Shown here: piece by piece, positions 451 through 32,697 of the stretch
Layout: each line of letters starts with the position of its first letter
Position numbering within the stretch: position 1 is the stretch's first letter
Assembly: GCA_022071945.1 (NCBI GenBank)
Contig: JAJVIN010000049.1
Coordinates: forward strand, 1 to 53,931
DNA from: Thermoanaerobaculia bacterium
Lineage (GTDB): Bacteria > Acidobacteriota > Thermoanaerobaculia > UBA5066
DNA length: 53,931 nucleotides
Direction of reading: 5' to 3'
Notes under the pieces: generated by a model
Seen by the model: the letters and a program-made list of their open reading frames with translations, nothing else
What the model was told of the DNA's origin: nothing
Database searches by the model: none
Made by a program: the position numbers and the translations under genes

Positions 451-725
451 CCCCGATCCTCGTCCCTGGTCTTGATGCGATGCTGGATCCGGAGCCGGTT
501 GACGATGGCCAAGCGGATCCATTCCCCGAGGGTCTCCCCCCGTTCATCCGCTGCTTGCCGGGCGGCCTCGAGCTTCTCGGATTCGATCCGGATCAGGAAC
601 GTTGAATCGTAGGTGCGGCCTGGAGGGCGGCCTCCCTTGTTCTTCTGCGGGGTTGGTTCCGTTGCCGGCGTCTCCAGGGCGGGGATGAGCGGAGGGGGCG
701 GGGTGTGCTTCGGGGTGCGGCTCAC
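447..725 (-). CDS. Small ribbon-helix-helix-like protein
   Basis: The 92-residue product has a Pro/Thr-rich N-terminal third and a C-terminal segment (STFLIRIESEKLEAARQAAD, then GETLGEWIRLAI) that reads like a beta strand plus two helices of the ribbon-helix-helix fold used by plasmid and phage DNA-binding proteins. I chose the GTG at 725 because AAGGA lies 10 bases upstream. The frame also runs to a TTG at 776, but that TTG lies inside a -35-like TTGACG. The gene ends by overlapping the next gene by four bases. A role in autoregulation or partition-like DNA binding is inference. Confidence 0.55.
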   Translation of the reverse strand: MSRTPKHTPPPPLIPALETPATEPTPQKNKGGRPPGRTYDSTFLIRIESEKLEAARQAADERGETLGEWIRLAIVNRLRIQHRIKTRDEDRG

Positions 726-747
726 CTTCTTCTGTTCCTTCGGAAAA

Positions 748-1033
748 AGGCTAGCCGCTCTATTCAAACCCGTCAAGCGGCGTTCCTGTATACCCAGAAA
801 CTGTCGGGACCAGAAACACTGTGCACGATGTATCGGTATGTCGAGAAACGCCGCTCATTCCGCGAACGAAAAGGACGTTGGCACGAATCATGATTTGACA
901 TAATTGATATTATCGGACGTGCACATCGATTTCCAGGCGTTTTCTACGTCTTTTTGGATATACCGATTCTTCATGGCTGAAGCATACCACCAAACCACGG
1001 CCGTTCACGGAGACCGCCAGTCTGTTCACGGAG
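748..1033. promoter_or_regulatory. AT-rich intergenic region with a possible leftward promoter and paired direct repeats
   Basis: This stretch between the sigma-like gene and the ribbon-helix-helix gene has lower GC than its surroundings. On the minus strand TTGACG at 776-771 and TAGCCT at 753-748 are separated by 17 bases and could drive the gene starting at 725. The decamer GTTCACGGAG occurs twice, at 1003-1012 and 1024-1033, 21 bases or two helical turns apart, overlapping the stop of the sigma-like gene. No coding signal is convincing between 777 and 1025. Confidence 0.35.
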
Positions 1034-1562
1034 GGCCGCCCCGCCTGTTCGCGCGTGTCTTCTGGACGAGCTGGCGGAGCCTGGCCAGGGCGGGGGCTTC
1101 CAGTTGGCTCACGCGAGTCCGGGTGAGCCCCATGGCGGCGGCAACCTCCCGTTGAGTCCTCTCCTGCCCGTCCTCGAGGCCGAAGCGGAGCACGAGAATC
1201 CGCCGTTGACGTTCCGGAAGGCGGGCTAGGAGTGCGGCGGCCTGCAGACCGAGAAGGCGGTCCGTCTCGCGGGGGTGGTGTGCCAGCTCGGGGCGCTCAC
1301 GCTCTTCGCCGTCCTCTCCCGGAATCGGAATCGTGAGGGGAACCTCTGTGCCTCTGCCACGCTGGCGGAGAGTCTCCGCAAGGCAAGCCCGCTCGATCAG
1401 GCGGCCGGCGAACGCAGGGAAGCGGCCTCGGGCGGGGTCGAATTCGCGTTCTGCCCGGGCGAGGGCGGCGAGGGCTTCCCCCGTAACAGCCTCTTCATCC
1501 GGCGCGTGATACCGGCGGGCGATGTGGAAGGCGAGCCCGAGATGATCCTCAGCGAGAGTCAT
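1026..1562 (-). CDS. Sigma-70-like RNA polymerase sigma factor of the element
   Basis: The 178-residue product has an N-terminal region resembling sigma region 2 (about residues 5-70, including EFDPARGRFPAFAGRLIERA) and a C-terminal region 4 helix-turn-helix (about residues 110-165: LPERQRRILVLRFGL, then TQREVAAAMGLTRTRVSQLE). No region 1.1 or 3 is evident, so it is shorter than housekeeping sigma factors and close to the ECF or phage-type size. It starts at 1562 and overlaps the upstream gene by 14 bases, so it is in the element's leftward operon. It could redirect host polymerase to element promoters; the target promoters cannot be identified from sequence alone. Confidence 0.8.
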   Translation of the reverse strand: MTLAEDHLGLAFHIARRYHAPDEEAVTGEALAALARAEREFDPARGRFPAFAGRLIERACLAETLRQRGRGTEVPLTIPIPGEDGEERERPELAHHPRETDRLLGLQAAALLARLPERQRRILVLRFGLEDGQERTQREVAAAMGLTRTRVSQLEAPALARLRQLVQKTRANRRGGPP

Positions 1563-1764
1563 TCAGCTTCGGCTCGCCCGTCGGTTCCTGTTCAGGCGCT
1601 CGAGGCCGGCGAGCGGCCGGGCCAGGCGCGGCCAGCCGGAGAATGGCCATCCCGGCCGCGAAGGCCCGAACGAGCGTTTCTTGGATCGGCAGGCCGTGCT
1701 CTTGCGCCCGGTCCCGGATCTCTTTCAGGGTTTGCCCGTCAACCTCGAGGGTGAGCTTCATCAT
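1549..1764 (-). CDS. Hypothetical small protein, possible ribbon-helix-helix
   Basis: The 71-residue product starts at the first of two adjacent ATG codons, at 1764, which overlaps the TGA of the upstream gene; GGAGGA lies just before. It begins MMKLTLEVDGQTLKEIRDRA and continues with a second helix (IQETLVRAFAAGMAIL), a short strand followed by two helices as in small DNA-binding proteins. The tail is rich in Pro, Ala and Glu. It overlaps the sigma-like gene by 14 bases, so the two are probably co-translated. An anti-sigma or regulatory partner role is conceivable but only by position. Confidence 0.5.
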   Translation of the reverse strand: MMKLTLEVDGQTLKEIRDRAQEHGLPIQETLVRAFAAGMAILRLAAPGPAARRPRAPEQEPTGEPKLNDSR

Positions 1765-2249
1765 TCCTCCGCCAACCGCTCGAGCGCTCGCCCGGCGGCT
1801 TCTGACGCACCCGGGAAGGGTGCGATCGCCCGGACGAGGGCCTCTTCGATACGTGCCCACTCCGGGCCTTCCAAGAACTCCCTGGCCGTCGCGGTTCGGT
1901 CCGTGTTTACCCTGTGAAGCAGCCCGACGAGATCGGCCAGGACCTTGATTGCGGCCAGCGCGGCCCGGAAGTCGCCACCCTTCTCTGCTTTCTCGCGGAG
2001 CCGGGCGGCATCGGACTCGAGGCTCCGAATCTTCTCCGCCAGCGATTCGGCCCGGGCGATGTCACGGGCTGCAGGGAGGACGGTGAGCCCCTTCGGGACG
2101 TGCGGCTTGTGGCGTTCGATGGCGGAGCGGGTGACGGTCCGGAAGCGGTTCGAAACGGACCGCGATGAGCCGCCGGTCCGAATCAGTTCCACGTCTATCT
2201 CATCTCGGTCCGGGCTTCTGCAGACGGTACACGGCCGGCCGGTTGCCAT
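1761..2249 (-). CDS. Phage/element-type protein with CxxC and helix-turn-helix-like N-terminus
   Basis: The 162-residue product begins with GRPCTVCRSPDRDEIDVELI and continues SSRSVSNRF then RSAIERHKPHV. This CxxC-DEID-HTH-RH pattern is common in small proteins of phages and integrated elements, where it looks like a DNA-binding head. The rest is helical, probably coiled coil (about residues 65-95), and ends with a Leu/Ala/Glu-rich helix. Start at 2249 has AAGGGACGG upstream. Similar proteins are sometimes annotated as small terminase-like, but nothing here proves packaging. Confidence 0.55.
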   Translation of the reverse strand: MATGRPCTVCRSPDRDEIDVELIRTGGSSRSVSNRFRTVTRSAIERHKPHVPKGLTVLPAARDIARAESLAEKIRSLESDAARLREKAEKGGDFRAALAAIKVLADLVGLLHRVNTDRTATAREFLEGPEWARIEEALVRAIAPFPGASEAAGRALERLAEE

Positions 2250-2311
2250 GTCGTCACCGTCCCTTCGTGGCGCCGGCCCGAAAGGTCTCCTTCGCGACGG
2301 TCGCCTTCATG

Positions 2312-2503
2312 TCAGTAGCCATCTATCGGGAGGGTGAACCTCCACCGCCTCGCCAATCTGGTCTGAGCCTCAGCGCTGCCGGCCTCGGCCGCGTTGGCTT
2401 CCGCTGTGGCCAGAGCGAGCGCGGCTTCCGCTTGTCGTACCTCGGTCTCGAGAGGGTGCGGAGGAGGGAGGGTGTTCGGGGCTTTGAAGGGGGTGGTGTC
2501 CAT
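2312..2503 (-). CDS. Small coiled-coil hypothetical protein
   Basis: The 63-residue product starts at the ATG at 2503, preceded by AAAGGA at a good distance; the longer frame to 2569 lacks such a site. The central region is an Ala/Glu-rich helix (VRQAEAALALATAEANAAEA) typical of a coiled coil. No known family is recognised. It stands alone between two gene groups, with about 60 bases on one side and 90 on the other. Confidence 0.45.
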   Translation of the reverse strand: MDTTPFKAPNTLPPPHPLETEVRQAEAALALATAEANAAEAGSAEAQTRLARRWRFTLPIDGY

Positions 2504-2596
2504 CTGAATCCTTTCTGTGTGTCGGGCAGAGCCCGGAGAGGGTGGCGATCTGTGCGCACGGGAGGCCATCCCGGCACAGGGCGGTGCAGTAACGGG

Positions 2597-2977
2597 TCAG
2601 TTGATCTCCCCGCCCGTCGCGGCGGAGATCACGCGGCCGGCCATGGTCAGCAAGGCCCCGGCGTATTCCCTGCCGTCTTCCGGGACCGGTTCGTCTCCCA
2701 AGCTGTTCACCAGGGAACCCAGTTCATCGAACTCGAGCCAGTTTTGGATGAAGGTCTCGGCGGAGGAGACAACGAGCGGCGTCAGCACGATGGCGAACGC
2801 GTTCCCGAGGCGGACTTCTTCCGTCAGGCCGGAGAATCTGTTGACGGCCGTGAGATATCGCAGGAGCCGTTCTTCCGCGAGGCCGCGATGGAAGGGGCAG
2901 AGCGTGCCACCCATCCGCGACCGGGGCGCACGGCACGGCCGGCTGGTATTCAGTGTGATGGCGGTACAGGTCTTCAT
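2597..2977 (-). CDS. Hypothetical protein with N-terminal Cys/His knuckle
   Basis: The 126-residue product opens with four spaced metal-type residues: Cys4, Cys15, Cys27 and His30 (CTAITLNTSRPC, then LCPFH). This is like the small CxxT..G.xC..CxxH motif proteins (DUF5763-like) seen in phages and islands. The rest is a helical domain without recognised motifs. The ATG follows directly after the stop of the upstream zinc-finger gene (TGAATG), which indicates translational coupling. Nucleic-acid binding is a reasonable guess. Confidence 0.5.
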   Translation of the reverse strand: MKTCTAITLNTSRPCRAPRSRMGGTLCPFHRGLAEERLLRYLTAVNRFSGLTEEVRLGNAFAIVLTPLVVSSAETFIQNWLEFDELGSLVNSLGDEPVPEDGREYAGALLTMAGRVISAATGGEIN

Positions 2978-3307
2978 TCAGCGCGCCTCCCCGTGGCGGA
3001 AGCACGCTCGGCAATGCGCATCCCCCCGGGCGGTCACGTGCCAGTCGGTTCGGCCACAGGTCGGGCACGGGGTCGACCGGAGCCGGGCCTCCGTCCGCTT
3101 CCGGCGTTCCTCTCGCCGGCGGGTGAGTTCCTCGAGGGGAACAACCTTCCGGGCGGCCCGGAAGCATGGGTCACAGAGAAGCTCGTTCGGGGTGACGGGT
3201 TGGCGGCAGTCGAGACAGACGGGAGCCGTGTCACCGGCCGCGACGTGGTGCCTCTCGGGCTCAAGGGCGGCCAGGGCGTTTAGGTAGGAGGAAGCGAACG
3301 GGCTCAT
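2978..3307 (-). CDS. Small zinc-ribbon-type protein with four CxxC pairs
   Basis: The 109-residue product contains CLDC, CDPC, CPTC and CRAC, enough for two zinc sites, separated by a basic helix (LTRRREERRKRTEARLR). The first pair set lies at about residues 31-50 and the second at about 80-105. The start ATG overlaps the TGA of the DUF3987 gene (ATGA at 3307-3304). The arrangement suggests a nucleic-acid-binding accessory to the replication genes directly upstream. Confidence 0.6.
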   Translation of the reverse strand: MSPFASSYLNALAALEPERHHVAAGDTAPVCLDCRQPVTPNELLCDPCFRAARKVVPLEELTRRREERRKRTEARLRSTPCPTCGRTDWHVTARGDAHCRACFRHGEAR

Positions 3308-4887
3308 GCGGCCTCTTGCTCTCTGGCTAGGATTGGGTGAAGGCGGATGACAGACTTCGGTCTTCCCCCGTTCTCGTCGCTACTCGTGAGGCGGACCCAA
3401 CCGAGGGCCTCGAGCCGCTGGAGTCCGGCCATCACAACGCCGCGACTGGCAAGGCCCTCCCACTCGTTCCGGTAGATTTCCCGGGGGCTCATGCCGTCGA
3501 AGATGTCGCCCCGCTTGATCCGCGTGGCGATGTCGTGAGCGGCGGTCGTGGCACGGGCCAGCTCGCAGGAGTAGACCTTCCGGGCGTGAGCCTCGAGGTA
3601 GTCACACCACGCGGCGGCCATCAGGGCGGAGCGGGCCGTGACCCCTCCTCCGGGATGCGTCCCAGAGACGCGGGCCATCGCGTCGAACACGAGGGCCAGC
3701 TTCGGCATGAGAGAGCGGTACTTGGCCAGGTGCTGAGTGAAGGCCGGTGTTTCGGCGGCCTCCGGGGCGCGGAGCCGGCCCTCAAGCCGGGTCAGCCACG
3801 GGGCGAAGATGTCCTGAGCGTCCGGGGCGAGGCGAAGGAAGGGAATCTCCCCTTCGAAGCCGGATTCACAACCGATGTCCTCCGGGGCGACTGAGTCAAG
3901 GGCCTCATAGACCGAGTAAGCGTTCTGGCGGGCCTCTCGATTCGGCCAGCGGTCGACGTACCGCCATTCACCGAACGAGTCGGGCCACACCAAGAGCTGG
4001 AAGCGCGGGAGGAGCCCGTCCGCCTGTCTCTGGTCTACCGTTCCCTTGACGTACGGTTCGAGCCGGGCCGGCTGGATCCCTCCGAGAATCGACAGGCAGA
4101 GGGCCTCAACGCGGACCTTCCCGCGCCCAATGCGGTCGACGTCGAACCCGCCGAGTCCGTTCCACCCCTCGAGGTAGAACGCCTGATCTTGAAGCCGGTC
4201 GTCTCGCTCGAGTCCCTTCAGGAAGCCGGTCAGCTCATCCCGAACGATCCCGATTCCGCGTGGGTTCTCGCTCAGGAGTTCGCCGATCTTCTCGATCGTG
4301 CCGTCACTCGTCGTGTAGCGGCGTTCCTTCGCGGGGGCGGAGCAAACCAGTTCGGCCAGCCGCTTCTGTTCCGTCTCGAGAGCCTCCCGGTTCCCCGCCT
4401 TCGCGGCCTTCTTCATGGCGTCCTTGATCGCGTCCCTCTGCGCGCTCTCGGCGGCCTGAGCGGCCATGTGTGCGGCCAGGGCGGCCTCATGTTCGCGCCG
4501 TGCCCGGCCGGCCAGGAAGCCCAGCGGGGCGGTAGCGGCGGCCAGGGCGGGGGTCTTCATCACTCCAGGCGGCCCGACGATGGCGCCCCATGAGTGAGCC
4601 GTCACCGTCCAGTCGTCTTGACGCTTCGGCCGGATCCCGAAGGACCTGCCGATGACGATTCCGAGAGCGACGAGGGCGGGAATGACAACGAACTCGAGAG
4701 GGATCTGGACGCGTTCTGCGATGTCACAAAGCCACGGACGGAGCGGGCCGGGAACGAGGGATTCGGGCAGGGCCGGGACGGGCTCACTCGACGGAGGAAG
4801 CGGAGCGGGCGGCCCGGCTGGCCACGCTGGCGGAGGGGGTGCGGCCTGCGTGCGCAAGCGGTCGAATTCCGGGAGGGCGTCAGCCAT
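3304..4887 (-). CDS. DUF3987-family ATPase, probable replicative helicase/primase partner
   Basis: The 527-residue product carries a Walker A motif GPPGVMKT (about residue 105) and a Walker B-like GIGIVRDEL (about residue 215), followed by the conserved DUF3987 core (ILGGIQPARL and GLLPRFQLLVWPD). DUF3987 proteins sit beside prim-pol proteins in phages, plasmids and satellites and act in replication initiation. I chose the ATG at 4887 because AAGGGA lies upstream; the first codons overlap the end of the primase gene by eight bases. The last bases overlap the zinc-ribbon gene. A Pro-rich linker (about residues 15-40) precedes the ATPase. Confidence 0.85.
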   Translation of the reverse strand: MADALPEFDRLRTQAAPPPPAWPAGPPAPLPPSSEPVPALPESLVPGPLRPWLCDIAERVQIPLEFVVIPALVALGIVIGRSFGIRPKRQDDWTVTAHSWGAIVGPPGVMKTPALAAATAPLGFLAGRARREHEAALAAHMAAQAAESAQRDAIKDAMKKAAKAGNREALETEQKRLAELVCSAPAKERRYTTSDGTIEKIGELLSENPRGIGIVRDELTGFLKGLERDDRLQDQAFYLEGWNGLGGFDVDRIGRGKVRVEALCLSILGGIQPARLEPYVKGTVDQRQADGLLPRFQLLVWPDSFGEWRYVDRWPNREARQNAYSVYEALDSVAPEDIGCESGFEGEIPFLRLAPDAQDIFAPWLTRLEGRLRAPEAAETPAFTQHLAKYRSLMPKLALVFDAMARVSGTHPGGGVTARSALMAAAWCDYLEAHARKVYSCELARATTAAHDIATRIKRGDIFDGMSPREIYRNEWEGLASRGVVMAGLQRLEALGWVRLTSSDENGGRPKSVIRLHPILAREQEAA

Positions 4888-5665
4888 TGCGCGTTTCCCT
4901 TCTCGCTGCCTCACGATTCGCGACCGAGCGGGCGATCGTGACCACGTCGGAATCGGGCAGAGGCGGCCGGCAACGGTCGCGGTTCCACAGCCGGAGCATC
5001 TCGAGGGTCACGTACGGGTCGACGTACCGCCGAAGGAAGTAGCCGGCCAGCCGGGTCAAGGTGGCGTTCCGGCCTCCCTCGTCGACGCCGGCGGCCACCA
5101 GGGCGGCGAACTGATCGGGCGGGGCGGCCGTCCTGGGAGACTGTGCGGCCGGGGACGTCACGAGAGCCAGGAGCCACTCGGGGGCCTCGCTGATCTCAGT
5201 TTCGAGAGGATGGAAGTCCACGTCCCAGGCGTAGACGCCGCGCTCCGCCCGGGAGGGGGCTACCACGATGTAGCCCTCGGCTGACCGGGTGTCGCATCCC
5301 GGCGCGAACCTCGCACGGTTGACGACACGACGGCCTTCTGTTGGGTTCAGGAAGAGGACGTGCGAACCGTGGCTCTGAGTGATCTGGCGAACTGTGCGGG
5401 GGAGCGGGCCGTGCTCCTTCTCGCGGTCACAGAGCCAGTCGGCGCCTTCGATCCCGTCGACGTCGAGAACCCAGAACTCCGAGCATCGAATCCCGATGTT
5501 CGAGGCCGGGTCCGCCCACATCTTGCGAATGAGCACAGGGTCCGTGGTGGCTTCGAGATGACCATTCGAGCCCGCTCGAGGGACCTTCCGCCCGGGGACG
5601 AGAGGGAAGACGGGCCATCCAAGCTTCTCGGCATAGGCCAGGGCGGCGGGGAGCATCTCGCTCAT
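4880..5665 (-). CDS. Bifunctional DNA primase/polymerase (prim-pol) protein
   Basis: The 261-residue product shows the prim-pol fold: ALAYAEKLGWPVFPL near the N-terminus, NIGIR, the metal-binding VLDVDG (about residue 70), SHGSHVLF and the EGYIVVAPS strand. The C-terminal part (GRNATLTRLAGYFLRR, then LWNRDRCRPPLPDSDV) matches the PriCT-1 helical domain. Such proteins make primers and extend them for replication of mobile elements. The start at 5665 overlaps the TGA of the previous gene, and the end overlaps the DUF3987 gene, so primase and ATPase are made together. Confidence 0.88.
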   Translation of the reverse strand: MSEMLPAALAYAEKLGWPVFPLVPGRKVPRAGSNGHLEATTDPVLIRKMWADPASNIGIRCSEFWVLDVDGIEGADWLCDREKEHGPLPRTVRQITQSHGSHVLFLNPTEGRRVVNRARFAPGCDTRSAEGYIVVAPSRAERGVYAWDVDFHPLETEISEAPEWLLALVTSPAAQSPRTAAPPDQFAALVAAGVDEGGRNATLTRLAGYFLRRYVDPYVTLEMLRLWNRDRCRPPLPDSDVVTIARSVANREAARRETRNG

Positions 5666-5949
5666 GCATCCCCCCACGCGCGGCGTTCGGGTTGCTCACT
5701 CGCTGCCGTTGCAGACGAGAGAAGGCTTCTCCAGTCCTCGAGTCCGCAGTGATCGGCGAGCCAGCGGGCCATGCCGATGAGGGTAGCCACGGCGGCGGCC
5801 TCGATCGCGGGTTCCACCGGCGGCCGTCGAAAAGGGATGATGCGGGCGGGGACGGAACACGGTAGACTCAGCGCGTCGGTTCCGCCCTTGTGTTCTGAGC
5901 CCTGCCGCAGTAGCCACTGTAGCGGGGCTCTTCGGTTTTCTGGCTTCAT
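5662..5949 (-). CDS. Hypothetical protein between AlpA-like regulator and primase
   Basis: The 95-residue product starts at the ATG at 5949, overlapping the TGA of the AlpA-like gene, and its stop overlaps the primase start. The longer open frame to 6351 runs through the AlpA-like gene and is not real. The protein has a basic N-terminal part, a hydrophobic helix (IEAAAVATLIGMARWLADHC) and a Ser/Ala/Glu tail. No family is recognised. Its fixed position inside the replication operon suggests a link to primase function or its timing. Confidence 0.5.
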   Translation of the reverse strand: MKPENRRAPLQWLLRQGSEHKGGTDALSLPCSVPARIIPFRRPPVEPAIEAAAVATLIGMARWLADHCGLEDWRSLLSSATAASEQPERRAWGDA

Positions 5950-6170
5950 GCTGCGGCTTCCGGCTTCGGGTATTCGGACGTGCTCTGGTAGCGGGGACGG
6001 GACTTGGCCCATTCCATGACTTCGGCCGGGACGTAGCGAATACGCCGGCCTAGTTTCAGAAATGGCGGCCCCCCGCCCCGCAGTCGCCAGATCCTCGGAG
6101 TTTGGTTTTTCACCCCCAGGGCTCTCGCCATCGTCTTTTCGTCCCATAGCTGAGGTTCGTTGCGGTTCAT
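5946..6170 (-). CDS. AlpA/MerR-type helix-turn-helix regulator or excisionase
   Basis: The 74-residue product has the layout of AlpA-like proteins: LWDEKTMARALGVKNQTPRI as the helix-turn-helix, WRLRGGGPPFLKLGRRIRY as the wing, and VPAEVMEWAKSR as the final helix. In P4-like satellites and islands such proteins switch on excision or the early operon. A near-perfect AAAGGAGG ribosome site precedes the ATG. It is the first gene of the primase run. A tandem CCCGCGAATT repeat 45-64 bases upstream is a plausible binding site. Confidence 0.8.
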   Translation of the reverse strand: MNRNEPQLWDEKTMARALGVKNQTPRIWRLRGGGPPFLKLGRRIRYVPAEVMEWAKSRPRYQSTSEYPKPEAAA

Positions 6171-6214
6171 TTCGGATCCTCCTTTGCTGACGAAGAGGCT
6201 CAGGGCACGTTTCT

Positions 6215-6234
6215 CCCGCGAATTCCCGCGAATT
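6215..6234. repeat. Tandem 10-bp direct repeat upstream of the AlpA-like gene
   Basis: CCCGCGAATT occurs twice head to tail at 6215-6224 and 6225-6234, just upstream of the AlpA-like gene and touching the stop of the next gene. The related 12-mer AATTCCCGCGAA occurs again at 7631-7642 within a coding region. One helical turn spacing fits an operator for a dimeric regulator; which protein binds is unknown. Confidence 0.4.
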
Positions 6235-6949
6235 AGGGGGAGTGGCGAACCCGATGGACGCGCCGGTGCCCCTGGCGTCGCTGAGAGCGGAACGCGGCCC
6301 TCTCACGGGCAGTGGTGTCTTCCTCTGTGTCGTCTCGGGTGATGTCGCCAAGCCATCGCTGAGTCTTTGAAGCCGGATAGAAGGTCAGGAGGTACTCCGC
6401 TGCAAGGCGTTCCGCCGCCCTCCGGCGGCGGTGTGAACCCTTCATGCGTCGAGCGCGTGCCGCCCTGGCTCCAAAGGAAATGCTGGTCCCTTCGGTGCCC
6501 TGCAATTCCAAAAGAGGCTGTATCTGAACTTCGAACGGCTCCAGGTTCACGAAGTGCATGGCCGGGGACTCGGAGACGATGGACGCGCCGCCGGTGCTGA
6601 TTTCACGCGTGAGCGCTTGCCATGCGTGGACCCAAGCAAGTCGTTCCGGGTCCGGTGATCTGCCCCGCTGATGGCGGCCGAATACGCCGTCACGCAGTCG
6701 CCACGTTGCGACTTCGATCTCCTCGAAATGGCTCAGCACATACACTCCGAGGACCTCGAGGGGCGCGCCGGTCAGTTCCATTCCCTTCAGGACGTCTCGC
6801 ATTTCGTTGACCAGGTCAATGATGTCGACGGCTGCCCGCTCGCCCCGGGAGAGGGATTCTCTCCATGCCTTGCGGGAAAGGTGGGAGCGAGACTCCGCGG
6901 CAAACACCTCGCGCTCGGATTCGGAGGGCGAGTCATCCGTTTCATCCAT
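6233..6949 (-). CDS. Hypothetical protein of the element, 238 aa
   Basis: The product starts at 6949 with an acidic head (MDETDDSPSESEREVFAAES), has a helical middle (DIIDLVNEMRDVLKGMELTG, then VYVLSHFEEIEVATWRLRDG) and a strongly basic Arg-rich tail from about residue 165 that could bind nucleic acid. No domain is recognised. About 150 bases without a gene separate it from the next gene to the right, so it may start its own transcript. That gap contains a 10-bp inverted repeat (6977-6986 and 7029-7038). Confidence 0.5.
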   Translation of the reverse strand: MDETDDSPSESEREVFAAESRSHLSRKAWRESLSRGERAAVDIIDLVNEMRDVLKGMELTGAPLEVLGVYVLSHFEEIEVATWRLRDGVFGRHQRGRSPDPERLAWVHAWQALTREISTGGASIVSESPAMHFVNLEPFEVQIQPLLELQGTEGTSISFGARAARARRMKGSHRRRRAAERLAAEYLLTFYPASKTQRWLGDITRDDTEEDTTARERAAFRSQRRQGHRRVHRVRHSP

Positions 6950-7106
6950 TCCGGTCCCCTCGTCTCCTGAGAGATACGCCCCGGGAAGCGGGAGACTCGC
7001 TTGTCAGCCGGTTCATGACGCCGGCCTATCCCGGGGCGTTCTGCGGTCATCCCGCTGGAAGATTTGCAGGCTTGATGTCGCGGTGGAATGCGAATCCCGG
7101 AGGGCC

Positions 7107-7517
7107 TCAGTTCCGGCTGGCCAGCCATTCAACTGGAACCCCCAGCGTCCGGGCCGCGTGTTCGATGAACGGACTCACATGAGGTTCCGGAAGGTTGCAA
7201 GCCCGGAGTGCGACCGCCGCCTGTTGCGCGCCCTCGGGGGCCTGGCGTAGATCCTCGAGCCCCCGAACGACGCGGTTCCAGAGGGACGGACTCAGCCCCG
7301 CGAGGGCGGGGTCATCGAAGACGATGTCCGCCTCGCCGTCTCCGGCCTCGCTGATCTCGGGCTCATGGTCGCCCTGGTCCTCGAGCAGCTCTCCCAGGGC
7401 GGCCAGCCGCGCGTCCGCCGCGGCGACCTGTTCGAAAGCGGCGTCCACGGCAGCTTCAGCCTCGAGGATTCGGGATTCGAGGATGGAGAGGGGAGCACCT
7501 GGCGGCTTGCGCTGCAT
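7107..7517 (-). CDS. Hypothetical coiled-coil protein, 136 aa
   Basis: The N-terminal third is an Ala/Glu/Leu-rich helix (SILESRILEAEAAVDAAFEQ onward to about residue 50) typical of a coiled coil. The rest contains SPSLWNRVVRGLEDLRQAPE and a mixed C-terminal half. The start at 7517 lies three bases after the stop of the preceding gene, so they share a transcript. No family is recognised. Comparable small helical proteins in islands are often regulators or partner subunits, but no role can be assigned. Confidence 0.45.
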   Translation of the reverse strand: MQRKPPGAPLSILESRILEAEAAVDAAFEQVAAADARLAALGELLEDQGDHEPEISEAGDGEADIVFDDPALAGLSPSLWNRVVRGLEDLRQAPEGAQQAAVALRACNLPEPHVSPFIEHAARTLGVPVEWLASRN

Positions 7518-7520
7518 GGC

Positions 7521-8123
7521 TCACGCCTCGAACGAGGGGTCCGGGAGAAAGAAGGTAATGCCGTGCGAACGGTGAGAGTCCCTCCCGAACGCGATCGCTG
7601 AAAGCCGTTGGCCGTAGTTAAGGCCCCCGTAATTCCCGCGAACCGGGTCCGGGGAAGGAATCGCCCGACCAAGTAGCTTCGATTCATCCGTCACCTGCCG
7701 AAGCCCGCCAACGAGGGCGGACGCCTCATGGAAGGCACGCGAGCAGCTCCGGAGGTAGTGAATGATCAGGGCCTCTTTGACGGTCAACGCCCGGAAGAGT
7801 GCCGAGTGCCTCTCGAGAAGAGCCATCCATTCGCTGCTCTCTGCAATCGAGCGCTTCCGCTCCTCCAGAGCCTTCGTTCGATGGCCGGCGGCCTGGATCT
7901 CGAGGGCGATGGCGGCCAGGTCTTCCGGGGAGGCTTCCCGGAGATCCTCGAGGAGTCCGGCCTCCAGGGCCTTCGCGTTCTCGATCGCGGCGTCAATGTC
8001 CTCGCCGGGCGGTAGAATCGGGGACGGAACAGCGCTCTTTTCGGGGGGTTGTTTCGGGCTCCGGGTCTCGGCTTTCTTGGCAGTTGGGCGAGACTTGGGG
8101 CCTTCCTTCTCGAGCTTGCTCAC
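7521..8123 (-). CDS. Hypothetical protein, 200 aa
   Basis: The product has a basic, Lys/Pro-rich head of about 35 residues, then an acidic helical region (about residues 40-120), and a C-terminal part with IHYLRSCSRAFHEASALVGG and a Gly/Arg-rich end. The start overlaps the TGA of the upstream gene by four bases. No family is recognised. It is in the same leftward run as the genes starting at 8329 and 7517. Confidence 0.45.
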   Translation of the reverse strand: MSKLEKEGPKSRPTAKKAETRSPKQPPEKSAVPSPILPPGEDIDAAIENAKALEAGLLEDLREASPEDLAAIALEIQAAGHRTKALEERKRSIAESSEWMALLERHSALFRALTVKEALIIHYLRSCSRAFHEASALVGGLRQVTDESKLLGRAIPSPDPVRGNYGGLNYGQRLSAIAFGRDSHRSHGITFFLPDPSFEA

Positions 8124-8329
8124 GCTGCAACCTTCCTGGCCGCAAGGATCTCGGCGCGGCGGAGTTCGCCCTCACCGCCGGCGGCGACGATGTCGCGGCG
8201 GAGCTGGGCAGCGGCCTCGAGATGCCGGCGGGCTTCCTCGGGCATCTGACCGGGGCGGCTGTTCTTCAGGATGTCGAACAGCTTCCGCCGCTCGCTGAAG
8301 AAGGTCTCGATCGTTTCGTTCAGTCTCAT
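8120..8329 (-). CDS. Small helical hypothetical protein, 69 aa
   Basis: The product is almost entirely helical (NETIETFFSERRKLFDILKN, then EEARRHLEAAAQLRRDIVAA). A good GGAGAGG ribosome site precedes the ATG at 8329. It overlaps the following gene by four bases. No family is recognised. Confidence 0.5.
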   Translation of the reverse strand: MRLNETIETFFSERRKLFDILKNSRPGQMPEEARRHLEAAAQLRRDIVAAGGEGELRRAEILAARKVAA

Positions 8330-8391
8330 GGGTACACCTCTCCACAGGGCGGCGGGTCGCGCCGCGGGTTGACCGGGGTGGGGTAGAGGGT

Positions 8392-8589
8392 CTAGGTAGC
8401 GCTAGTCTGAGAATCGGGCCTCTTGCTGGCGGCCCGGCGAGCCTCGAGAGCCTCTATGACGAGTCGCCGGACGGCGGCTCCAAGCGGCCTGTCTTCTTCT
8501 GACGCGACCGCGCGGACCTGTTCGAAGGTCTCCTCGTCAAGCTGGGTTCCGATCTGCCGGTTCCTTGGGTGCTCTTTTCGCGCGCTCAT
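8392..8589 (-). CDS. Ribbon-helix-helix transcription regulator
   Basis: The 65-residue product shows the CopG/Arc-like pattern: a basic strand region (NRQIGTQLDEETFEQVRAVA) followed by a turn and second helix (RPLGAAVRRLVIEALEARRA). A strong sigma-70-type promoter lies directly upstream (TTGACG, 17 bases, TATGTT), giving a leader of only about nine bases with no clear ribosome site. The -10 element is flanked by two CGTAA repeats ten bases apart, as expected for an autorepressor. It is divergent from another putative ribbon-helix-helix gene at 8651. Confidence 0.7.
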   Translation of the reverse strand: MSARKEHPRNRQIGTQLDEETFEQVRAVASEEDRPLGAAVRRLVIEALEARRAASKRPDSQTSAT

Positions 8590-8650
8590 AGGTTGTCATC
8601 CGTAAACATACGTAATCATAGGCTTCTCGTCAAGGCACAATCTTCAAAAG
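8590..8650. promoter_or_regulatory. Divergent promoter/operator between two ribbon-helix-helix genes
   Basis: On the minus strand TTGACG (8633-8628) and TATGTT (8610-8605) are 17 bases apart, a good sigma-70-type promoter for the leftward gene. The pentamer CGTAA occurs at 8601-8605 and 8611-8615, one helical turn apart and overlapping the -10 element. That spacing fits cooperative binding of ribbon-helix-helix dimers. The rightward gene starts at 8651 without a clear ribosome site. Transcript starts are inferred. Confidence 0.6.
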
Positions 8651-9187
8651 ATGGCGTACAAGAAGAAGGCGAAGCAAATCCTGGTCTCGATGACTGAGGC
8701 GATGTTCGAGAACGTGGCATCTCTCGCGGAGGAGTCGGGTCGCCGGCTTGGCGAGATGAGCCGTGTCCTCATTTCCGAAGCGTTGGAGATGAGAGCCGAA
8801 GCGACCAAGGCCGCTGCCCGAATCGCGAGCAGCAAAGGACCCAGGATCGACGTGGACCCTTCGCGTGCGCTCGAGGTCTGGGACCTCGCCCGGAAAGAGG
8901 GCATCACGGCCTCCGAAGCCGCTGGACGCCTTGCGGAGCAAGAGGGGATTCCCGTCATGGCTTCGATACGCGCAGACGGATCTCCCGACACATTCACCAC
9001 CCTTCCGAAACGTGATCCGTCGGCCAAAACGAGGTCGGAGGCGGAGAAGATCGCCCGCGGTGTTGTGATGGTGCAGGCGGCCGTAAACGGAACCGTCCTG
9101 TCGGACGAGGAGATTGAGGAGCGCATCCGCTCCATGGCCGAATCGCTCGAGCTGCTCGTCGCCAGCGGCCCCGCTCCCAGGCCCTGA
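8651..9187 (+). CDS. Ribbon-helix-helix-like regulator with C-terminal extension
   Basis: This is the only rightward gene in the element. The 178-residue product begins with a Lys-rich segment and AKQILVSMTEAMFENVASLA, followed by a second helix (RLGEMSRVLISEALEMRAEA), the ribbon-helix-helix layout. From about residue 65 to the end it has a helical region without a recognised family (ALEVWDLARKEGITASEAAG, then EEIEERIRSMAESLELL). Its divergence from a second small regulator around a compact operator is like the lysogeny switches of phages, but this is inference. Confidence 0.55.
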   Translation: MAYKKKAKQILVSMTEAMFENVASLAEESGRRLGEMSRVLISEALEMRAEATKAAARIASSKGPRIDVDPSRALEVWDLARKEGITASEAAGRLAEQEGIPVMASIRADGSPDTFTTLPKRDPSAKTRSEAEKIARGVVMVQAAVNGTVLSDEEIEERIRSMAESLELLVASGPAPRP

Positions 9188-9364
9188 CCGGCCCGCGACC
9201 CACGGGAACACTTCTCGCCACCTTGAGCGGCCCGCCAGGGGGGCGTTCAGTAATGCCGAACGTTCAGGAGATGAACGTTACCCAGTTTCGGCAGTTTCGA
9301 GGGGGGCGCCCCCCGTCCGGGTATTTCTGGATTTCCGGAGAAACCTCGAATTCCCTGCCCTGCG

Positions 9365-9884
9365 TCAGATGCGCCCGCTTGGCCTGTCGCTCCGCTCCTT
9401 GAAGTAAGCGGCCACTCTCGAGACGAAGACTCCGCCGATGACCCGGCCGAAGTAGGGTCCGAAGTGCTTCACGTCTCCCGTGAGGAGATGCGTACACCCG
9501 GCCGCCATGGCGGAACGCAGGATGGGAGCGTCCTTCTCCGGAAGCGTGATGTCCGGCGGAACCTCAACGAGAGGCTCCACCGGAATCACCCGGACTCCCT
9601 CCAGGAGCTTCACGAGGCGCTCCCGTTGTGAGTCCGTATCGAGGTTCCGCCGTGCTTCCTCCGCCGCATAGGAAGAGGTCACGAGTTCCACGCTCTCGAA
9701 GTCCCACAGACGGACGAGGCCAGCGTCCTCGCGGTAAGCCGGACTCCACGAGGACGAGCGTCCCTTCCTCGAGACCGAAGCGCTTCCGGACGTCAGCCGG
9801 GATGACCACGGTCCCGCGTTTCCCGATCTTCACGGCTTCTCCCACGGGTTCCTCCTCGTGTCTGACATTCAGAAACTCAGACAT
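9365..9884 (-). pseudogene. Gutted AbrB/PIN toxin-antitoxin locus
   Basis: From 9884 the minus strand encodes an AbrB/SpoVT-type antitoxin head (EAVKIGKRGTVVIPADVRKR, then FGLEEGTLVLVES). Near 9740 the match stops and a different frame takes up the middle and end of a PIN-domain toxin (SPAYREDAGLVRLWDFESVE, then PEKDAPILRSA and TGDVKHFG) until the stop at 9365. The antitoxin tail and the toxin start, including the first catalytic aspartate of the LDANVL motif, are missing. The simplest reading is one internal deletion that joined the two genes out of frame. The locus should be inactive. Confidence 0.75.
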
Positions 9885-9960
9885 TCCGTGAATAGTCTAC
9901 GCTCCGAAGGGGTGTACGGACGCCCCCGGCGCCGAGGAGTCTCTACCCGGTTCCTGGTTC

Positions 9961-10140
9961 GGAGGGGACTTTTGTCAGTTTTGTCAGTTCGTAGCCCCCT
10001 ACGTTTCCAGAAATTGAACCCGGAGTATTTACGCCGAAATGACGCTTCTGTCGGTTCTGTCAGTTCATACCCCTGCGTGTTTCTGGAAACGAGGGGGGCT
10101 TTTGTCAGTTTTGTCAGTTCGTAGGGGGGAGGGTTTCCCA
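9961..10140. repeat. Three imperfect direct repeats built from paired TGTCAGTT units beside the integrase
   Basis: Copies centred at about 9985, 10060 and 10115 share a core with two adjacent TTTGTCAGTT-like units followed by GTAG or ATAC, a C- or G-run and GTTTCC or GTTTCT. The first and third cores are identical over TTTTGTCAGTTTTGTCAGTT and the next five bases; the second has several substitutions. Spacing is 76 and 54 bases. The cluster lies in a 270-base non-coding gap between the broken toxin-antitoxin locus and the integrase stop. Arm-type recombinase sites or replication iterons are the likely roles. Confidence 0.6.
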
Positions 10141-10154
10141 GAATCGAGGGTGGC

Positions 10155-11282
10155 TCATCCGGCCTTCCTCCGGCCGGTCATGGAGACCACTTCCGCGAGC
10201 GCCTTCCTCCGCTCTGCATCCTGGACAGGGCTGTAGTGTTTGGCGGTGACCCCGATGTCATGGTGCCGGAGGACGGCGGAGGCGGTGTGAATCCCGGCGG
10301 CCTGAGCGATCAGTTTCCCGACAGTTCGCCGGATGTCATGGATCCTCACGTCCTCGAGGCGGGCGGCCTTCCGGATTCGTTCCCATGGCTTCTTCAGGTC
10401 GTACCGGGGGCCGTTCTCTCCGGGTATGACCCAGAGCCCCACACGCGGCAGCTCCCTGAGCCATGCGGCCGTCTCGGGCGCGAGGGGTACGACCTGGGGA
10501 GTTCCGGCCTTCGGGTCCGGGAGTCGCCAAGAGGGCTCCTTCTCGTCCAGGTCGAAATCTGCCCACTTCGCGGCAAGTACCTCTCCTGAGCGTGCTCCTG
10601 TCTCCAGGAGGAGCCGGAAGGCGGCCCTGACGTGGAGGTCAGGGTGAGCCTCGATCGCCGCTACAAGCCGCCCCAGCTCTTCAGGGCTGAGGGTCCTAGC
10701 GCGGGCCGGATTCTCCCGGGCCTTCTCGAACCCAGTGGCGGGGTTCGACGTGATGAACCGCCGCTTGATCGCCCGGCCGAAGGAAGCGGAAACGACCGTG
10801 AGCGCGCGGTTCCTCATCGCCGGGCGCTTCGAGTAGGTCTCCAGGAGGGCGGCCACATCGGAGGGGGTGACTTCGGCAAGCCCCTTCTTTCCGAACACGC
10901 CGGCGGCATCCGTCAGATACCGCTCTGGCTCTTCCGGCCGCTTGCGTGTGAGCCGAAACTCCTCGAGGTCCGTCTTCACCCACTCCGTGAAGGTTGGAAT
11001 CGTCTTCTTGGATTCGATGGCGCCGGCGGGGTCCTGCCCCAGCTCGTGAGCCGCGAGGATCTGGCGGGCCTTCTCGCGGGCCTGATCGACCGTGATGATT
11101 CCAAACCGCCCGACCCGGAGGAACCTCCTCCGGTCGCGGGATCCGAACCTCACGGAGAAGGTCTTCTTACCGGAGGGGAAGACGTCAACGAGGAAGCCCG
11201 GGAGTTCCGAGTCATACACACGAACCCCCGAGGGCTTCTCGGTCTTCAGGGTGTCGATGAGTCTCTTCGTGAGCTTCTTCAT
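10155..11282 (-). CDS. Tyrosine recombinase integrase
   Basis: The 375-residue product has the P4-type layout: an N-terminal DUF4102-like arm-binding domain (KLTKRLIDTLKTE, then LPGFLVDVFPSGKKTFSVRF), a central SAM-like core-binding domain (about residues 90-180) and a C-terminal catalytic domain. The catalytic residues appear in order: Arg in LLETGARSGEVL, the HDIRR box, LRHHD and the nucleophile Tyr in AKHYSPV. I chose the ATG at 11282; the open frame extends further upstream but family proteins start near MKKLT. It faces away from the adjacent truncated tRNA-Pro, its presumed target. Confidence 0.92.
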   Translation of the reverse strand: MKKLTKRLIDTLKTEKPSGVRVYDSELPGFLVDVFPSGKKTFSVRFGSRDRRRFLRVGRFGIITVDQAREKARQILAAHELGQDPAGAIESKKTIPTFTEWVKTDLEEFRLTRKRPEEPERYLTDAAGVFGKKGLAEVTPSDVAALLETYSKRPAMRNRALTVVSASFGRAIKRRFITSNPATGFEKARENPARARTLSPEELGRLVAAIEAHPDLHVRAAFRLLLETGARSGEVLAAKWADFDLDEKEPSWRLPDPKAGTPQVVPLAPETAAWLRELPRVGLWVIPGENGPRYDLKKPWERIRKAARLEDVRIHDIRRTVGKLIAQAAGIHTASAVLRHHDIGVTAKHYSPVQDAERRKALAEVVSMTGRRKAG

Positions 11283-11423
11283 GGGTCCAGTCGTTCCTCT
11301 TCCGTTCCACAAGAGTTTCAACCGGGCGTAACTCTCTGTCAACGTCAAAAAACAAAGCCCGCTATTCAAGCGGACTCCGTCAACGTCATGAAACGTGGAT
11401 TACTCTGAGTTTACGCCATGCCC

Positions 11424-28447: not shown

Positions 28448-28719
28448 CGAAGGTCCTCCCATCGAGCGCCCTCGAGTACGAAGCCTCGTGGCTCTGGGCG
28501 GCCACGGGGCCGGCCGTTTCCAGGCGCCCGGGAATGAGCCTAGCGCTGATTCGGGGACCCGGAGCCCGATTCCGTCAGGGATTGCGTGAGGAAACTGGCG
28601 TCTTTCCATCCCGGCCCTCTGCCCGGCTCATCATTGCGCCGATTCAGAAGCGCCAATCCGAGAGGAGCGGGCCGCCGGCTCGCTCCTGTTCGGGTACAGT
28701 TCGTCACGGAAAGAGACTC

Positions 28720-31700
28720 ATGCCCGGCTCCGTGACGATCCATCTCCCTGGAGACGAGGTGGCGGTCCACCCCAGTCCGCCTTCAGGCCTTGGGGACCTG
28801 GTTGCGGCCTTGCGGCTTGCCGTGCATCTCGCGGAGACCGGTAAGGGTCCGCCGCGGTCGCTTCTCGGCCTCATCGAGCTCCCGGGGAAACCGGTTCCTG
28901 CGGCCGATCAGGGCAGGACGCTCTCCCGGCTCTCGGAAGACGTGACACGCTCCCTTTCCGTGGCCTCGACCGAGACGGAAGACTGGGTCGTCTTCTTGAC
29001 CTTCATCCTCGGCGCCTCCCGGCGGATCGTGGGGCGGGCCCTCTCGGAGCTCACCCAGCTGCACCGGGAGCGTGACGAGCTCGGAGAAGCGAGCCCACGC
29101 CTTCTGGCCCTGGACATCGCCCTGCGGGGGCGCCGCCGCCTGATCGTGGCGAAGGGACTGTTGCTGCTCGAAGCCCTGGCCTCTCTCGCGGCGGCCCTCG
29201 AAGAGCAGGCCTCGTGCCTCGATTCCTCCAGAGAGCTCGCCCGCCGCCTTCCCGATTTGATCGGCGAGTGCCAGCGCGTCCTCGACCTGGAGCGGCGGCT
29301 CCTTTCGGAGGAAGCCTCCGCGACCCCCTATCTCACTGCGGCGCCGGTCCTGACCTCTCTTGCCGACAAGCTCGAGGCCTTCCGGCTCGCGTGCGACAAG
29401 GTACACGGCGAGGCCGGCCGAGTCGCCGAGCAGCTGGCGAGGGTCGGAGCTCCTTCCGAACCAACCTCTGACCCCGCGTGGCTTCAGCCCGCGGTGGAAA
29501 CAACCGTCCGCTTCGACGGGAGTGTCGAGGAGCTCGATGCCAGGATCGCCGCGATCAGGCAGTCGATGTCCTTCGACGAGGTCGAGCCCTTCGTCGACCT
29601 CTCGGTTCCCGACGCCCCGATAACCGAAACCGCCGGTCATTTCACGCACCTCTTCGCGTTGGGTCTCGCCCGGATTGCCGCCGGTTCTCCCCTCGAGCGA
29701 GCCCGCCGGCTCGACCGGCCCGCCGTCTGGCGGGAGATCCTCGCCTTCCTTCCGCCGGGTCCCCTGGCCGAGGAGATTCGCGAGGCCGTCCATCGGTGGG
29801 TAAACGAGGCCGTCGAGGGCGCGCGAGAGGCTTCGACGCTCGAGGCGTGGGTGAAGGTGCGCGAGTTCGCCGAGCCCGGGACCCCGCTCGCGGAGGAAGC
29901 GGCGGAGCGGTGCGACCTTCTTTCGGCGCTGGCGGCCTCTCGGCCAGCGGCCCTCCAGGCGTATCTCGCTCGCCACCCCGATGGACCTGGCGCCGCGGCG
30001 GCCCGCACGCGGCAAGAGGAGATCGCATGGGTTCCGGATTGGGCGAGCGAGTCGGGCGGGAAGGACGCCGGGTACTGGGTTGAGCTCGACCTGTTTGGCG
30101 AACGGGTCCGGTTCCGGCTTCTGGCGGCGGGCACTTACCTCGTTCACCCGGCATGGCTGGTCCGGGACGCAGAGATCGAGAGCCGTCCCATGGAGGTGAC
30201 ACTGACTCGCCCCGCGTGGGTGGCGGAGAGGCCCGTCTCGAGAAGGGTCTGGGAGGGTGTGGGGGGCGGTGAGACCGGACCCGAAGGGGAGGACCGGTCC
30301 GTCCTGGCGCCTGTCTCCAGGAATGATGTGGAGGACTGGCTGGTCCGCCTCCGCGAGCGGCGACCGGACCTGGCCCTGCGAATGCCCTCCCAGGTGGAGT
30401 GGGAAGCGGCCCTCTGCCTGGGGCTTTTCGAGAGCGTTCCTCCTTCAGGAGAGTGGTGCCAAGACGGTGCGTTTGCCGGCGGGGAGCCAGTCAGGACCGA
30501 TCCGCTCGGTGATGCGGACGCTCCGGTCCTGCGTCAAAAGGCTCTGGCTCCGGACGCTGCTGGGCCTGCGCGACTGGCTCCGGCAAACGCGCGCCTCGAG
30601 GGGACCGGGTTCCGTCTCGTCGCCGATGCCACCGGCGCTCACGATCAACGGGATGCTCTCGAGGATTTCGTGCGGCCTCCGAGGGGTGCGGTCTACCTGG
30701 GCGACCTTTCGCCCTTGAGCGCCAAGGAGCCGCCGGGTCTGAAGCGGGCCCCGGGGGATGCCTGGGGAGCCCTGTCCGTCCTGGTGGGAGGCCGCCGGAC
30801 GAGTGCGTTCGTTCCGCTCCATGCCCCATCGACGGTCGCCTGGGCCATCCCTCCCGGGACGCGGAGGTTCACGGCAGTCGGGGCGGGCGCTCCCGCCCAA
30901 GGCGCTCTCCACAGAAGCTGGAGCTATCGGATCGACATCGACGGCAGACCCGTCGCCTCGACGCCTCCTCTTTACGAGAGCCGGGGAGGTCTTCCGATCG
31001 ACGTCCCCATACCCGAGAACGCGCGCGAGATGACCGTCAGCGTCGATCCGCTCGGGGACGCGGACCACGACCAGGCCGTTCTCGCCTGGCCCTACTTCCA
31101 CCGCGACCGTGTGGGGGTCCTGTCCGTGATCCCCGACTCCGCCATCTTCCTCGGAGCTCTGACCCCGAAAAGCGCCAGGGTGGGCTGGGGCGAGTACGGA
31201 GTGAACAACCTCCCGGATCCTCACCACGCGGTTCGATTGGGAGGGATCCGGGTAGAGGAATTCCTCTGGATGCACGCGCCGGCGGAGGTCTCGTGGTCGA
31301 TCCCTCCCGGAGCGCGGAGGTTCACGGCGATCGGGACGCGAGTCGACCTCGACTTCACCGCGCACGGGACCTGGCGTTTCGTCGTCCTGATCGACGGCAA
31401 GGAGGTCCATGCCACCGACCCGCTCGCGGCGAGTCCCGAGGGACTGCCGATCGATGTCTGGCTCCCTCGCTCCGCCGAAGAGCTGACGATCCGCGTCGAC
31501 GACATGGGCGACGCGAAGTGTGACTGGTCGGTTCTGGCCTTCGCGTGCTTCCGGACGGCGGAGACCGAGTTCCGTCCGGGGGAGGCTGTTTTGCGGAGCT
31601 TCGAGGGGCGCTTTGTTTCTCTGCGCGCCGAGGGAGCTGGCCGCCTCGTTGCCGCCGATGCGGCTCCCGGTCCTCCCGCGCGCTTCGAGCTTCTCGAGAC

Positions 31701-32697
31701 CGGACCGGCCCGTATTGCGCTCCGCGCGGCGAGCGGGAGGTGGGTCCGGCGGGCAGAGGACGGGACCAGGGTGTGTGTCGATTCCCTCGTGCCGGGCCCG
31801 GAATCGGAGTTCGCCCTCGGCCACGCAGGGGCAGGCTGCTACTCCTTCCGGGGCAGCGGTACGGAAACCTTCCTCTCACTCCCGCTCGCGGGCGAGCCAG
31901 AGTTCGTCCCGAGGCCGGCTCACGGGGACGCCCCAGCGGCATTCGAGCTTCTGGGAAGACACTGTTACGCGGGCTCGGCGAGCGATCCTCCCATTCCCGC
32001 CTCTCACTCGGTTGTTCGCTTCGCCCTTCCCGTCGAACGAACGGCCTTTTCAGAAGACGGTGAGGACCTGGTGGCGGCCTCGGGAACCTCGCGCCTGCGT
32101 CTGAAAGGTGGGGCCTGGGTGGAGCGGGAGGGGCACCGCGCCATCCACTTCGACGGCGTTTCCACTCACGCCATCGTGGAGCCGCCCCCCTGCCTGAGCG
32201 CGGATCTCACGATCCGGATGACGTTTCGCCTTTCGGCAGCTCCACGCCAGGGCTGGGTTTCGTTCTTCCTGTGCCAGTCAGATGCCGATCGGATCAACGT
32301 CCGGCTCTGCCTGGCGAACGGCCGCCTCGAATGGGTGGCGCCGGGAGGGCCGGCGCTCGTGTCGCGCGCCGAGATCACGCCCTGGGTCCGGCACACCGTT
32401 GTCCTCGCCGTGGAGGGGCCCCTCCATCGGCTCTATCTCGACGGGCAGCTTCAGGGGGGCGCCGCGCGGAAGCTCGACGAGACGATCCGCCTGCCTCTGT
32501 TCGTGGGGCGGCGCTTTGCCGGGGAGGGCTGGTCCTATCTCGCCGGAGAGATCTCGGAGCTCTCGATCCTGGGACCGCCCGGGGCGCAGGAGGGCGGGAG
32601 TCTCGATCCCAGACCGGGAACCCGTCCTCAGGGGAGCGGCCCGGTCTCGAGGGGGAGCTCGGGCCTCGCCCCCCATTCCCAGAGCGAGCCATCGTAG
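28720..32697 (+). CDS. Large multidomain protein: helical region, FGE-like, 2x NPCBM-like, beta-trefoil-like, LamG-like
   Basis: The 1,325-residue product starts at ATG 28720 (GAAAGAGA upstream) and has no signal peptide. Residues 1-440 are mostly helical and unknown. Residues about 463-636 look like a formylglycine-generating-enzyme domain (VRFRLLAAGTYLV, PVSRRVWEG, LRMPSQVEWEAALCLG, GEWCQDG, GTGFRLV) but without the catalytic Cys pair, so probably a binding version. Two NPCBM-like repeats follow at about 656-795 and 807-945 (FVPLHAPSTVAWAIPPGTRR; FLWMHAPAEVSWSIPPGARR). About 957-1079 resembles a fascin/AbfB beta-trefoil, and 1098-1286 a LamG domain (AIHFDGVSTHAIVEPP, HRLYLDGQ). Its end overlaps the next gene by 70 bases. 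Confidence 0.75.
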   Translation: MPGSVTIHLPGDEVAVHPSPPSGLGDLVAALRLAVHLAETGKGPPRSLLGLIELPGKPVPAADQGRTLSRLSEDVTRSLSVASTETEDWVVFLTFILGASRRIVGRALSELTQLHRERDELGEASPRLLALDIALRGRRRLIVAKGLLLLEALASLAAALEEQASCLDSSRELARRLPDLIGECQRVLDLERRLLSEEASATPYLTAAPVLTSLADKLEAFRLACDKVHGEAGRVAEQLARVGAPSEPTSDPAWLQPAVETTVRFDGSVEELDARIAAIRQSMSFDEVEPFVDLSVPDAPITETAGHFTHLFALGLARIAAGSPLERARRLDRPAVWREILAFLPPGPLAEEIREAVHRWVNEAVEGAREASTLEAWVKVREFAEPGTPLAEEAAERCDLLSALAASRPAALQAYLARHPDGPGAAAARTRQEEIAWVPDWASESGGKDAGYWVELDLFGERVRFRLLAAGTYLVHPAWLVRDAEIESRPMEVTLTRPAWVAERPVSRRVWEGVGGGETGPEGEDRSVLAPVSRNDVEDWLVRLRERRPDLALRMPSQVEWEAALCLGLFESVPPSGEWCQDGAFAGGEPVRTDPLGDADAPVLRQKALAPDAAGPARLAPANARLEGTGFRLVADATGAHDQRDALEDFVRPPRGAVYLGDLSPLSAKEPPGLKRAPGDAWGALSVLVGGRRTSAFVPLHAPSTVAWAIPPGTRRFTAVGAGAPAQGALHRSWSYRIDIDGRPVASTPPLYESRGGLPIDVPIPENAREMTVSVDPLGDADHDQAVLAWPYFHRDRVGVLSVIPDSAIFLGALTPKSARVGWGEYGVNNLPDPHHAVRLGGIRVEEFLWMHAPAEVSWSIPPGARRFTAIGTRVDLDFTAHGTWRFVVLIDGKEVHATDPLAASPEGLPIDVWLPRSAEELTIRVDDMGDAKCDWSVLAFACFRTAETEFRPGEAVLRSFEGRFVSLRAEGAGRLVAADAAPGPPARFELLETGPARIALRAASGRWVRRAEDGTRVCVDSLVPGPESEFALGHAGAGCYSFRGSGTETFLSLPLAGEPEFVPRPAHGDAPAAFELLGRHCYAGSASDPPIPASHSVVRFALPVERTAFSEDGEDLVAASGTSRLRLKGGAWVEREGHRAIHFDGVSTHAIVEPPPCLSADLTIRMTFRLSAAPRQGWVSFFLCQSDADRINVRLCLANGRLEWVAPGGPALVSRAEITPWVRHTVVLAVEGPLHRLYLDGQLQGGAARKLDETIRLPLFVGRRFAGEGWSYLAGEISELSILGPPGAQEGGSLDPRPGTRPQGSGPVSRGSSGLAPHSQSEPS

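Follow-up and report, generated by a model that had tools for sequence, protein, structure and literature searches.

A 1,325-residue protein of a Thermoanaerobaculia bacterium with an FGE-like, NPCBM, beta-trefoil and LamG chain: a possible intracellular recognition protein

The gene and its surroundings

The stretch of DNA analysed here, referred to below as the window, is 53,931 nucleotides long and comes from a Thermoanaerobaculia bacterium. Positions 28720-32697 of the forward strand form one open frame of 1,325 codons, with the coordinates given in the initial annotation, and the gene is present as a single copy in the 6.17 Mb genome. A Shine-Dalgarno-like sequence, GGAAAGAG, lies at 28708-28715, directly 5' of the ATG at 28720. 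The same frame stays open further upstream as far as an ATG at 28534, which would permit an extension of 62 codons. In this extension the G+C content of the three codon positions was flat (0.65/0.63/0.61) compared with approximately 0.72/0.52/0.81 in the gene, and the gene-like pattern started only at 28720. No hydrophobic stretch was found in the extension, and sequence-based searches revealed neither a signal peptide from either of the two starts nor a clear membrane segment in the 1,325-residue protein. The initial annotation had described a protein lacking a signal peptide but allowed for a missed upstream start that might carry one. Such a start can be ruled out because of the flat G+C profile, the lack of a hydrophobic stretch upstream and the Shine-Dalgarno-like sequence at 28720. 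The protein is apparently cytosolic, i.e. not exported.

The gene stands alone between a divergent DUF1439 gene upstream and a convergent rhodanese-START-like gene downstream. None of the four window neighbours tested matched a PADLOC defence model, and PADLOC and NCBIfam searches with the 1,325-residue protein also gave no match. Approximately 17 kb away, positions 1-11400 of the window resemble an integrated element with a tyrosine integrase gene (10155-11369, minus strand) as well as DUF3987 and Prim-Pol/PriCT-1 primase genes (3304-5677, minus strand).

Table 1. Features of the gene and its product; G172 denotes the relative found in a genome of another class
Feature	Residues	Position	Strand	Basis or remark
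Whole gene	1,325 aa	28720..32697	+	Shine-Dalgarno-like GGAAAGAG; coding codon-position bias from residue 1
N-terminal head	1-320	28720..29679	+	no Pfam match; low-confidence helical bundle
Helical-hairpin repeat linker	321-443	29680..30048	+	pLDDT mostly 75-93 from residue 350; kept in G172
Degenerate FGE-like domain (C-type-lectin fold)	446-640	30055..30639	+	collinear alignment with intact FGEs; Pfam E=0.15
NPCBM domain 1	651-795	30670..31104	+	Pfam; alignment with G172
NPCBM domain 2	810-943	31147..31548	+	PF08305, E=4.9e-18
Fascin-type beta-trefoil	~948-1085	31561..31974	+	PF06268, E=3e-5; G172 5.6e-4
LamG/concanavalin-like domain	~1147-1283	32158..32568	+	PF13385, E=7e-6; G172 8.9e-20
Gly/Ser/Pro-rich tail	1290-1325	32587..32694	+	missing in the G172 relative

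The chain of binding modules

The protein consists of a helical head and helical repeats followed by a degenerate FGE-like domain, two NPCBM domains, a fascin-type beta-trefoil and a LamG domain (Table 1). The order of the last five modules had been proposed before and was borne out, for the two NPCBM domains, the trefoil and LamG by Pfam profiles and for the FGE-like domain mainly by alignment. The two NPCBM stretches matched PF08305 with E=4.9e-18. What had been called simply a trefoil is indeed present and can now be specified as fascin-type, since this segment scanned alone scored above the Pfam cutoff of PF06268. The LamG segment, likewise scanned alone, reached 26.7 bits with Laminin_G_3, slightly below the cutoff of 27.6. 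Neither the glycosidase domain nor the signal peptide of secreted NPCBM glycoside hydrolases was detected in the protein by Pfam and a sequence scan.

The FGE-like segment, scanned alone, remained under the cutoff of PF03781 and was recognised by alignment, being collinear with intact FGEs as far as the GFRL end. Compared with FGE/SUMF1-like enzymes it is a remnant: approximately 35-40 core residues are missing between EWEAALCL and GLFES (the latter corresponding to WGLYDM of intact FGEs), the RGGSW motif is replaced by RQKAL, and the catalytic cysteine pair is missing. The lack of the cysteines had already been noticed, that of the core block had not. Third-position G+C and codon-position bias drop at residues 561-620. 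A hidden frameshift was considered as the cause of the trimming, but the other two frames carry no FGE motif; the trimmed domain therefore reflects a real loss.

DGR diversification is common with FGS. An FGE-like fold serves as a binding scaffold both in DGR variable proteins and here; however, the FGE of the former is C-terminal, whereas that of the window protein is internal and its DNA was not repeated beyond chance in its own genome (an assembly approximately 96% complete). The two reverse transcriptases of this genome, encoded on other contigs (L078 2638-4023 and L079 2180-3826, both minus strand), are retron-like with the motif YADDLTFS. As there was neither a template repeat nor a reverse transcriptase of DGR type, diversification of the FGE-like domain by this route was rejected.

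Two genomes of the class encode proteins of approximately 950 residues with an intact-looking C-terminal FGE (L030 3285-8652 and L031 9638-12484), and further FGE matches adjoin both. These proteins are reminiscent of the FGS members of VMAP ternary conflict systems.

A relative in another class and the rarity of the chain

A weak match of the head led to G172:C345, in a genome belonging to another class of the same phylum. Its minus strand encodes the same succession of repeats, FGE, NPCBM, NPCBM, trefoil and LamG, with Pfam E-values of 1.9e-33 for FGE, 4.7e-18 for the two NPCBM domains, 5.6e-4 for Fascin and 8.9e-20 for LamG. It is 46% identical to the window protein across the paired NPCBM domains and 34% identical across residues 321-971. 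The initial annotation had suggested a search for the same architecture as a check. Because the whole chain recurs in a distant genome, this comparison indicates that the unit shared by the two genomes is real and old and not a chance fusion. The G172 relative keeps the canonical, intact-looking FGE core, so the trimmed domain of the window protein is a derived state.

Upstream of the repeats the relationship is less obvious. BLAST of the head against the upstream pieces of the G172 locus gave no match, and the pieces likewise contain neither a signal peptide nor a clear membrane segment. There was, however, a weak collinear similarity with an alignment z of 3.1-3.8 against shuffles; the score was reached by 1-4 of 500 shuffled sequences, or by 9-18 of 500 when local composition was kept. 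The most hydrophobic 19-mer of the window head is located at residues 141-160, and that of the G172 head, LVRFLRIVCMGAIVLLRSI, lies at the corresponding place. Order, position, alignment score and the hydrophobic helix at the matching place suggest that the two heads share a common descent.

One in-frame TGA and three frame changes break the G172 copy (L040 9281-13430, minus strand) into five reading-frame pieces; they may be real decay or an assembly error. It might be argued that the gene, which would encode an old multi-lectin protein, is being lost because constraint on it has been relaxed in the two genomes. The breaks in G172 between intact flanking genes would agree with this, as would the trimmed FGE and the lowered codon-position bias of the window copy. 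We consider such a fate quite unlikely, since the window frame is intact across 1,325 codons with an otherwise normal codon bias and the paired NPCBM domains are well conserved.

With a paired-NPCBM profile the chain was found in at least 2 of the 396 genomes that sample the phylum and at least 1 of 148 genomes of the class; these counts are lower bounds, as scoring was confined to the few best candidates of each genome. The other profile matches that were followed up turned out to be unrelated NPCBM proteins, for example exported or glycosyltransferase-like ones. Two pattern scans, which reach few distant relatives, detected no close relatives in genome contigs, and a search of plasmids gave none either. 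The rarity claimed for the chain is therefore upheld by the profile search, and its patchy presence together with the decay in G172 fits an accessory gene.

The own genome contains two other NPCBM matches, one at the C-terminus of a multi-spanning, probably glycosyltransferase-like membrane protein (L054 5972-9078, minus strand) and one in an adjoining small, lipoprotein-like gene. They are compatible with a scaffold in the cytosol that serves the cell's own metabolism of polysaccharides or glycoconjugates, in which the modules would hold a glycan and the head would oligomerise with no role in defence. NPCBM has 'carbohydrate-binding module' in its name, and both LamG and the beta-trefoil are common among lectin folds. 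This explanation nevertheless appears unlikely in view of the very patchy distribution and of the fact that no glycan-metabolism gene adjoins the gene in the window or in G172.

The N-terminal head, its stalk and a possible recognition role

The N-terminal 440 residues had been described as a helical head without a recognised family. For residues 1-320 this holds: a Pfam scan assigned them to no family, and they are a candidate for a new domain family. The last ~120 residues, in contrast, are helical-hairpin repeats. Structure prediction gave these repeats a pLDDT of mostly 75-93 from residue 350. In single-sequence models of the head, long helices were packed into a bundle with low confidence (mean pLDDT 51 and 61); a short N-terminal part is followed by long helices at approximately 60-243. 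Apart from G172, the head was not convincingly found in any other architecture among the 396 sampled genomes of the phylum, matches with E ~0.005 being single weak stretches.

The initial annotation had further proposed that the head is the active part of an effector. No catalytic motif was recognisable in residues 1-320, and Pfam detected no effector, NTPase or adaptor domain in them. With neither a family nor a catalytic motif, with a bundle modelled at low confidence and with part of the region being a repeat linker, an active head and the label 'effector' are without support; 'sensor or adaptor' suits the protein better. One might still imagine a self-contained sensor-effector whose hydrophobic helix, matching in place in both heads, belongs to a membrane-active domain that is freed on lectin binding. 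Several alpha-pore-forming bundles were indeed among the first Foldseek matches, but they were non-significant (E 0.1 or more, TM ~0.15-0.25; best E 0.12 in the comparison with ClyA-like alpha-helical bundles) and otherwise only generic four-helix bundles were found. Since the head model is of low confidence and any long helical bundle attracts alpha-pore-formers, this possibility is highly improbable.

The repeats of residues 321-443 resemble those behind Ser/Thr kinases in related genomes of the phylum (L036, L037, L039), which thus possess a related stalk. Large Ser/Thr kinase-FGE proteins are encoded in the own genome (L074 2268-6215 and L075 95-3103, both minus strand) and in G172 (L077 2348-5221, minus strand); they end in an apparent alpha/beta-hydrolase-like region, and one has two N-terminal kinase-like repeats. 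They share the FGE with the window protein, in which it is degenerate. Unlike both groups, the window protein has no kinase and has NPCBM, trefoil and LamG domains in addition. It could accordingly be a kinase-less cousin acting as receptor or adaptor in a Ser/Thr kinase network and read by a kinase in trans. The stalk, whose best matches are the kinase-fused repeats, and the kinase-FGE fusions of both genomes point in this direction, as does the kinase gene placed divergently beside the G172 copy. That kinase is of a common type, though, its position is not conserved, and no kinase occurs among the window neighbours examined, which makes a role in such a network distinctly improbable.

Comparison of the two loci revealed no conserved partner. 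The neighbours, whose conservation had been suggested as a check, are ordinary genes that differ between the genomes; in G172 they encode a CoA-transferase-like subunit and the kinase already mentioned. No effector, EAD/Death-like adaptor or STAND or other NTPase was fused to the protein according to Pfam or found among the window neighbours scanned.

NPCBM and FGS have been proposed as intracellular lectin-fold sensors of invaders (Kaur, Iyer, Burroughs, Aravind 2021, PMC8195603). In the sections of that paper considered here they occur in interchangeable contexts, fused or linked to kinases, TIR, effectors, Death-like adaptors or NTPases. The window protein resembles these conflict proteins in its NPCBM and FGS/FGE-like modules, its N-terminal helical regions and the lack of an export signal. 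It differs in that the NPCBM and FGS systems, separate in those sections, are united here in one chain together with a trefoil and LamG, and in that no effector, EAD or NTPase to which such sensors are linked was recognised. Although it has the NPCBM domain and, judged by its sequence alone, the cytosolic location of these sensors, we do not class it among them because the association with an effector, adaptor or NTPase that defines them was looked for and not found.

The reading that we favour, tentatively and as somewhat less than probable, is that of a cytosolic recognition protein working like the proposed NPCBM/FGS sensors. The recognition role of the initial annotation may thus stand, as it fits the role proposed for these modules in cells, while its effector part does not. 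The five beta-rich lectin-fold modules (trimmed FGE, two NPCBMs, beta-trefoil and LamG) would form a large binding face, held by the helical-hairpin stalk behind the helical N-terminal domain, which probably self-associates or docks a partner. The ligand of the C-terminal modules would be a foreign or glycosylated macromolecule, and its binding would be signalled onwards by the head. As neither an effector, NTPase or adaptor nor a conserved partner turned up, a defence role is something that we infer, like the type of ligand and the signalling by the head. It is doubtful whether the protein represents a new class of intracellular immune receptor that acts standalone through multiple lectin modules, uniting the hitherto separate NPCBM and FGS sensor types with beta-trefoil and LamG, and whose N-terminal domain is a new one for signalling or effector action.

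A literature search returned no paper joining NPCBM with FGE-sulfatase and one joining NPCBM with fascin, a Verrucomicrobia ecology survey. In one chain with NPCBM, FGS and two further lectin folds these modules are joined directly and physically. A single protein carrying both NPCBM and FGS allows the proposal that they share a function in invader sensing, which was based on their replacing each other in similar gene contexts, to be tested.
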